Assembly: GCA_024278345.1 (NCBI GenBank)
Contig: JAJRTK010000015.1
Location: forward strand, 1-10,087
DNA from: a bacterium
GTDB lineage: Bacteria > CSSED10-310 > JAJRTK01
Length of the DNA stretch: 10,087 bases
Reading direction: 5' to 3'
Both the position numbers and the translations under genes were made by a program. The notes beneath the pieces were generated by a model, which was given only the letters and a program-made list of their open reading frames with translations, did no database searches and was not told the DNA's origin. This document shows positions 951 through 10,087 of this stretch, one piece after another. How positions within the stretch are numbered: the stretch's first letter is position 1; every line of letters begins with the position of its first letter.

Positions 951-1251
951 CCACCTCCCTTCTCTTTCCTGGCAGGGGTGGAGAGGAAGGGGAAGCTATC
1001 GAGTGGGAGGCCCGAAAGGCCCGCCCGGGAATTTCGCCCGCCCAACAGTGCGAGGCGCAAACCGCGGCCATCCGCGTACCATGAAAGTACATGGTTGAAT
1101 CCAACTTCGACGGCGTGGTCATGGCGCTCCGCGCCTTCCACTTTCATCTTCCGGGGTGTGGTCGCCGGGATCATGCTCGTTAAGGCGGGACATTTCAAGG
1201 ATTGTGGAGTTGTGAGCGCCCGAGCAACGCCTCGCACTGTTCGGCGGTCGT
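951..1251. other. Non-coding stretch with small hairpins
   Basis: No gene is recognised between the FG-GAP remnant and the REP-like palindrome. Small inverted repeats are visible: CCATG, six bases, CATGG (1079-1094), and GGCGC-TCC-GCGCC (1123-1135). Translations in all frames are Arg/Pro-rich and unlike known proteins. This may be intergenic debris left by decay of the FG-GAP gene. Confidence 0.45.
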
Positions 1252-1291
1252 CCGAAAATTGTAGCATGCGGGTCTCCCGGCCCGCATGCAT
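1252..1291 (+). repeat. REP-like GTAG-headed palindrome, copy 1
   Basis: A 40-bp sequence repeated exactly at 9927-9966. It reads CCGAAAATT, then GTAG, then a hairpin with 9-bp perfect arms (GCATGCGGG and CCCGCATGC) around an 8-nt loop. A GTAG (or GGAG) tetranucleotide directly before a stem-loop is the known signature of bacterial REP elements mobilised by RAYT (Y1/TnpA-REP) transposases. No RAYT gene is in this window. The copy lies just upstream of the regulator promoter, with the hairpin ending about 33 bases before the -35 box. Confidence 0.75.
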
Positions 1292-1319
1292 CGGGTGCCC
1301 CGGTTTGCCCATCAATGGC

Positions 1320-9574: not shown

Positions 9575-9644
9575 TCCTTCCTTGGCTTGCGTTCCGCTCC
9601 CGGCGGCGGCAATCCGTCCGCCGCCACTCGCCCGGTTCTCCGCC
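9575..9644 (+). repeat. Degenerate dispersed repeat, copy B
   Basis: Positions 9575-9626 contain TTGCGTTCCGCTC, then GGCGGCAATCCGTCCGCCGCC split around a hairpin. By hand alignment, 42 of 52 bases match copy C read in reverse complement, without gaps. The final CCGGTTCTCCGCC (9632-9644) recurs at 5972-5984. Confidence 0.6.
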
Positions 9645-9706
9645 GTCGGGAGCCAGGAGCCGCCAGGCCCGGGGAATCCGCAATCGCCGTGTCCGCTAGG
9701 GCGAGA

Positions 9707-9782: not shown

Positions 9783-9828
9783 GTAAGACGCCTTGAGGGC
9801 AGTGAGTCCGGTTGAAGGGCGATGACTG

Positions 9829-9890
9829 GGGAGGGGCGGCGGACTGATTGCCGCCGACCCGACCGGAACTCAACCAAAAGAAACGAAAAC
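9829..9890 (-). repeat. Degenerate dispersed repeat, copy C (inverted)
   Basis: On the minus strand: CGTTTCTTTTGGTTGAGTTCC followed by a GGCGGCAATCAGTCCGCCGCC block and CTC. It matches copy B in inverted orientation at 42 of 52 positions, so B and C flank about 200 bases as an imperfect inverted repeat. Confidence 0.6.
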
Positions 9891-9926: not shown

Positions 9927-9966
9927 CCGAAAATTGTAGCATGCGGGTCTCCCGGCCCGCATGCAT
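9927..9966 (+). repeat. REP-like GTAG-headed palindrome, copy 2
   Basis: Identical over 40 bases to the copy at 1252-1291, including CCGAAAATT, the GTAG head and the 9-bp-arm hairpin. Sequence on both sides then diverges, so the 40-bp unit itself is the repeat. It is followed by a second small hairpin, AGGGC-TTC-GCCCT (9967-9979), and a CACCCACC linker like the one in the palindrome cluster at the window start. Confidence 0.75.
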
Positions 9967-9990
9967 AGGGCTTCGCCCTGCACCCACCAG

Positions 9991-10018
9991 GTAGGGTCAC
10001 GGCGCGCCGTGACCCTAC
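9991..10018. repeat. 28-bp perfect palindrome
   Basis: GTAGGGTCACGGCG is followed immediately by its exact reverse complement, 28 of 28 bases. It also begins with GTAG. With no loop it could form a cruciform or serve as a symmetric protein-binding site. The chance of such a palindrome in 10 kb of random sequence is very small. Confidence 0.85.
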
Positions 10019-10087
10019 ATTCCGGGACCTATCAAATTGTCGTGTTTTTGCTTTACAATTTTCTTCGCCGAAACGGTGGCACCGGCA
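10019..10087. other. AT-richer end of window with an inverted repeat
   Basis: AAATTGT (10034-10040) and ACAATTT (10055-10061) are inverted around 14 bases, and TACAATTTTC (10054-10063) is the exact reverse complement of GAAAATTGTA at 9929-9938. TACAAT at 10054 looks like a -10 box but has no -35 at a usable distance. No gene starts before the window ends. Confidence 0.4.

Follow-up and report, generated by a model that had tools for sequence, protein, structure and literature searches.

A MITE very probably nested within a modular palindromic element at the end of a bacterial contig

The window (the whole stretch of DNA analysed, 10,087 nucleotides) is an entire contig of a draft bacterial genome (6.06 Mb, 550 contigs), and it breaks at 10087 inside a repeat. 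Two repeat families meet at this right-hand end, which follows a B12-binding radical SAM gene: MITE-1, and a modular palindromic element related to a family that we call MITE-2. The nearest named protein match is 68% identical and comes from a MAG labelled SAR324 cluster; besides the host genome, 40 other genomes were searched, including 7 relatives from the same phylum. The features are as follows.

1182–1295, forward strand: second copy of the modular element, truncated, with an identical hairpin 1 module
9927–10023, forward strand: left part of the modular palindromic element, lacking a left inverted end; MITE-2 related, and interrupted at 10023 by MITE-1
9929–9938, forward strand: GAAAATTGTA, initially taken for a left terminus, actually the lead-in to hairpin 1
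9939–9964, forward strand: hairpin 1, GCATGCGGG-TCTCCCGG-CCCGCATGC, in slot 1 of the modular element
9967–9979, forward strand: hairpin 2, AGGGC-TTC-GCCCT, with the near-constant GCACCCACC after it; hardly varies among MITE-2 copies
9991–10018, no strand: 28-bp perfect palindrome GTAGGGTCACGGCGCGCCGTGACCCTAC, an alternative slot 3 hairpin; other copies have AGGGAGCGCGCTCCCT and other sequences here
10016–10023, forward strand: TACATTCC, left copy of the target site duplication of the MITE-1 insertion; the right copy, TATATTCC, is on contig C136
10024–10087, forward strand: MITE-1, first 64 bp of 154, the rest cut off by the contig end
10054–10063, forward strand: TACAATTTTC, initially taken for a right terminus, actually interior positions 31–40 of MITE-1

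MITE-1 is 154 bp long, with ends GGGACCTATCA...TGATAGGTCCC, and has the properties of a MITE: it is short, non-coding and multi-copy, the family carries inverted ends on both sides (only the left one lies on the window contig), and its target duplication has a fixed length of 8 bp. The 154-bp consensus matches at least 40 places in the host genome at 97–99% identity, and exact GGGACCTATCAR ends occur 272 times there, against 0 for the reversed control pattern. Both flanks are available at 41 distinct sites, and at 34 of these the 8-bp duplications match at 7 or more of the 8 bases; this duplication is the real evidence of mobility. Copies of MITE-1 lie within MITE-2 elements at two other loci (L026 and L067), and the family is absent from the 40 other genomes searched, 7 of them from the same phylum. 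A second MITE-1 subfamily, which shares its ends and its length of 154 bp with the first but has a different interior, is present at L012, L002 and L016; at L016, one copy of the subfamily is inside another and has its own 8-bp duplication.

MITE-2 has 23-bp inverted ends (GGGTATCCACGCAAGGCGGGACA) and 8–9-bp target duplications, and its full copies are about 216–295 bp. There are 423 such ends in the host genome within 2 mismatches (reversed control, 0), and the family consensus folds at −134 kcal/mol (z = −8.6). Inverted ends together with a target duplication, as in MITEs and BOX-like elements, are thus found in MITE-2 copies elsewhere; in the window copy there is no left 23-bp end before 9927, and the TIR-like right end (GTGGATAACC) is on contig C136 only. 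Judged by its interior, and with a recognisable left 23-bp end absent, the window copy appears to be related to MITE-2. Positions 1–66 of the 135-bp stretch discussed below (9929–10063) match a dozen other places in the host genome at 86–97%, and over 72 bp the window flank is 90% identical to one MITE-2 variant (L011). The truncated copy at 1182–1295 is followed, 79 bp downstream, by an Lrp/AsnC-type regulator gene (1374–1928). The window has no match in Rfam at the gathering threshold. MITE-2 sequences or ends were not found in the plasmids or viral contigs searched, nor was the family found in 8 genomes (the 7 same-phylum relatives and the MAG labelled SAR324), and among the matches listed for genome contigs, none of those to the MITE-2 end falls outside the window's own genome.

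The initial annotation described 135 bp of this region as having the look of a composite BIME- or MITE-like element, a single mobile unit bounded by GAAAATTGTA and its exact reverse complement TACAATTTTC. The features that it listed are all present (the 10-bp pair at 9929–9938 and 10054–10063, the hairpin at 9939–9964, AGGGC-TTC-GCCCT at 9967–9979 and the palindrome at 9991–10018), and an exact inverted pair enclosing three strong hairpins does speak for such a unit. Against it, the two 10-mers are not ends at all, each being interior to a different repeat family; the true ends are other sequences, beyond the 135-bp span, and the whole stretch matches the host genome at its own place only. The other matches to the 135-bp query are mostly partial and do not have both ends; they cover the left part (1–66), the centre with the palindrome, or the right part (93–135). 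The next longest (L002, 81% over 1–129) is itself a MITE-1-type insertion into a modular element, in which hairpins 1 and 2 are followed by a different slot 3 sequence and then by a copy of the MITE-1 subfamily, whose interior lacks TACAATTTTC. Across the fetched loci the 10-mers occur independently, and the full stretch with both of them is found only here; of the 49 distinct contexts of GAAAATTGTA on either strand, 42 lie in MITE-1 and the other 7 belong to the hairpin module, although these loci were fetched with the same queries, and so the count is not an unbiased census. Comparable pairs are also expected by chance: the window has 3 exact 10-bp inverted pairs spaced 20–150 bp apart, versus 1.8 ± 1.9 in Markov-simulated windows. 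The pairing of the 10-mers is a coincidence, because about 1.8 such pairs arise per window by chance and because the 10-mers are independent elsewhere in the genome. That the parts are distributed separately over the genome already refutes the single unit, by the very test that the initial annotation proposed, and its probability is practically nil. What stands of the original description is that the DNA is of repeat or MITE type and that it is composite; chance-matching 10-mers and a contig end had made a nested insertion resemble a new composite element.

The window's final 43 bases overlap exactly with the end of contig C136, which continues through the MITE-1 end GATAGGTCCC and the octamer TATATTCC into the modular element's right half. 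TACATTCC and TATATTCC match at 7 of 8 bases, and this is the only near match to the octamer after the other MITE-1 end. The join of the two contigs is probable, rather than proven, because MITE-1 is multi-copy. Beyond the right half of the element, C136 carries a convergent gene, which from inspection of its translation we take to be queG (epoxyqueuosine reductase), with its stop codon within the element's end. Since the overlap continues into the right half and the queG-like gene, the modular element probably lies between two convergent genes. The final codons of the queG-like gene and its stop (TTA TCC ACC TAA; L092:1394–1411) seem to derive from the modular element's inverted end.

Taken together, the region is very probably a nested insertion, of MITE-1 within an older copy of a MITE-2-related, modular, non-autonomous element. 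The older copy would have sat in the intergenic stretch after the radical SAM gene, and MITE-1 would later have inserted at the edge of the 28-bp palindrome, duplicating the 8 bp of TACATTCC. The hairpins belong to the outer element, and would have been exchanged between copies. A contig that ends inside a multi-copy repeat might instead be chimeric, with 10024–10087 an assembly artefact, but beyond the other end of MITE-1, on another contig, come a target duplication that matches and the outer element's continuing right half, which make this very unlikely.

Both families would presumably move in trans by means of DDE-type transposases, although no transposase with the ends of either MITE was found in the draft host genome. 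A search with PF00872 gave no hits and one with PF01609 gave a single ISAs1 C-terminal fragment, with no MITE-1 ends beside it, in an assembly that breaks at repeats. This ISAs1-family fragment lies at a contig start (L153:3–263), and its ends match neither MITE.

The outer element consists of a nearly constant frame with three hairpin slots, whose contents vary between copies yet remain self-complementary. Slot 1 holds GGGGAT-TCC-ATCCCC, GGGGAC-GCT-GTCCCC, GGGGCC-TCC-GGCCCC or the GCATGCGGG hairpin, and in other copies (G)GTCGTCC is found upstream of GAAAATTGTA. AGGGC-TTC-GCCCT fills slot 2. In slot 3, copies have AGGGAGCGCGCTCCCT, AGGGAGTTACCTCCCT, longer versions or the palindrome GTAGGGTCACGG, and the slot of the window's palindrome (9991–10018) is likewise occupied at L003, L011 and L017. 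The stretch from 9927 to 10022 folds at −53.9 kcal/mol (z = −6.1), with none of 200 shuffles as good. Most base pairs in the alignment are invariant; three have changes on both sides, the paired changes from U-A to C-G occur in 5 sequences, and the covariation term given by RNAalifold is small (−0.25 kcal/mol). Conservation of structure is thus supported mainly by slot replacement and little by compensatory changes.

Because the frame is constant while the slot hairpins differ yet stay self-complementary, these hairpins probably function in their folded form, as DNA or RNA. They are most simply predicted to be transcription terminators, or 3′-end structures between genes. The outer element has two terminator-like sites in its right half, on the strand that is read outwards from the window, while a terminator scan of the part in the window gave nothing within the element. 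A further proposal, which we regard as unlikely, sees in the outer family a mobile scaffold in which whole alternative palindromes are exchanged in fixed hairpin slots, selection acting on structure and not on sequence; copies may swap palindromes by recombining with one another, through slippage at hairpins, or by means of a RAYT (REP-associated tyrosine transposase). The outer family, whose hairpins differ between its many copies in a sparsely sampled lineage, could show the swapping of palindromic modules with folding kept. Tandem arrays of single hairpin units are present for the inner hairpin of MITE-1 (right end of L018) and for GGGTCACGTTTGCGTGACTCGAA (left end of L005), which suggests that slippage on hairpins occurs in this genome.

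An RAYT could also be involved more directly, if hairpin 1 were a GTAG-tagged REP and slot exchange were RAYT-driven insertion. GTAG-tagged REPs have been linked with RAYTs (PMC3733652). Copies of hairpin 1 do have GTAG at their 5′ edge (counting the first base of the hairpin as part of the tag), and a single RAYT-like gene is present in the genome (NF047646, E = 1.3e-18, under the curated cut-off; HUH-type motif PDHVHG), with two GTAG-tagged hairpins within its reading frame. These hairpins differ in sequence from hairpin 1, and GTAG is not enriched as a tag among the hairpins of the fetched loci. In addition, hairpin 1 has only about a dozen copies, nearly always in the frame of the modular element and not free or in the alternating, inverted pairs of REPs. 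We therefore consider an RAYT origin of the slot hairpins quite improbable. The RAYT-like gene (L061:1012–1737) carries its two copies of the tagged hairpin repeat within the reading frame (GTAGGGGCGGGTTCCGAACCCGCCC, other strand), and MITE-1-like sequences lie around it, at 824–988 and near 2034. Target duplications are not expected from the single-strand (HUH) movement of REPs. Compared with REPs, BIMEs and REPINs (PMC3733652), the outer family shares the GTAG edge of hairpin 1 and the presence of an RAYT-like gene in the genome, but is bounded by inverted ends and 8–9-bp duplications and has no alternating REP arrays.

Among other known systems, bacterial MITEs resemble both families in being short, non-coding, high-copy and strongly folded, with inverted ends and target duplications. 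The two families differ from them in being G+C-rich rather than A+T-rich, in that no autonomous relative sharing their ends was found, and in that neither family matched any of the related genomes searched. BOX elements of Streptococcus pneumoniae (PMC3049150) are modular, with inverted ends, target duplications, variable interior modules and RNA-like folds; the outer family is likewise a bounded modular composite with a variable interior that folds. Compared by description, BOX varies chiefly in the number of boxB modules (PMC3049150), whereas the outer family has alternative hairpins in fixed slots, and also small tandem runs of one hairpin. Insertion sequences are known to insert at REP palindromes (PMC1525189), and MITE-1 has here similarly landed in or beside an intergenic palindrome, but its targets are varied and few of 42 sites lie within MITE-2. 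The initial annotation did not recognise its element as a described family, and we too found no description of the outer family, although its kind, the modular mini-transposon, is already known. The outer family, with its exchangeable hairpins, thus appears to be undescribed, and both families are new, but of known kinds (a MITE and a modular BOX-like element).

A third repeat family is present in the window as imperfect inverted copies at 9578–9645, 9828–9882 and 1886–1950 (55 bp at 80% and 65 bp at 74%), and it also occurs at many other loci of the host genome.
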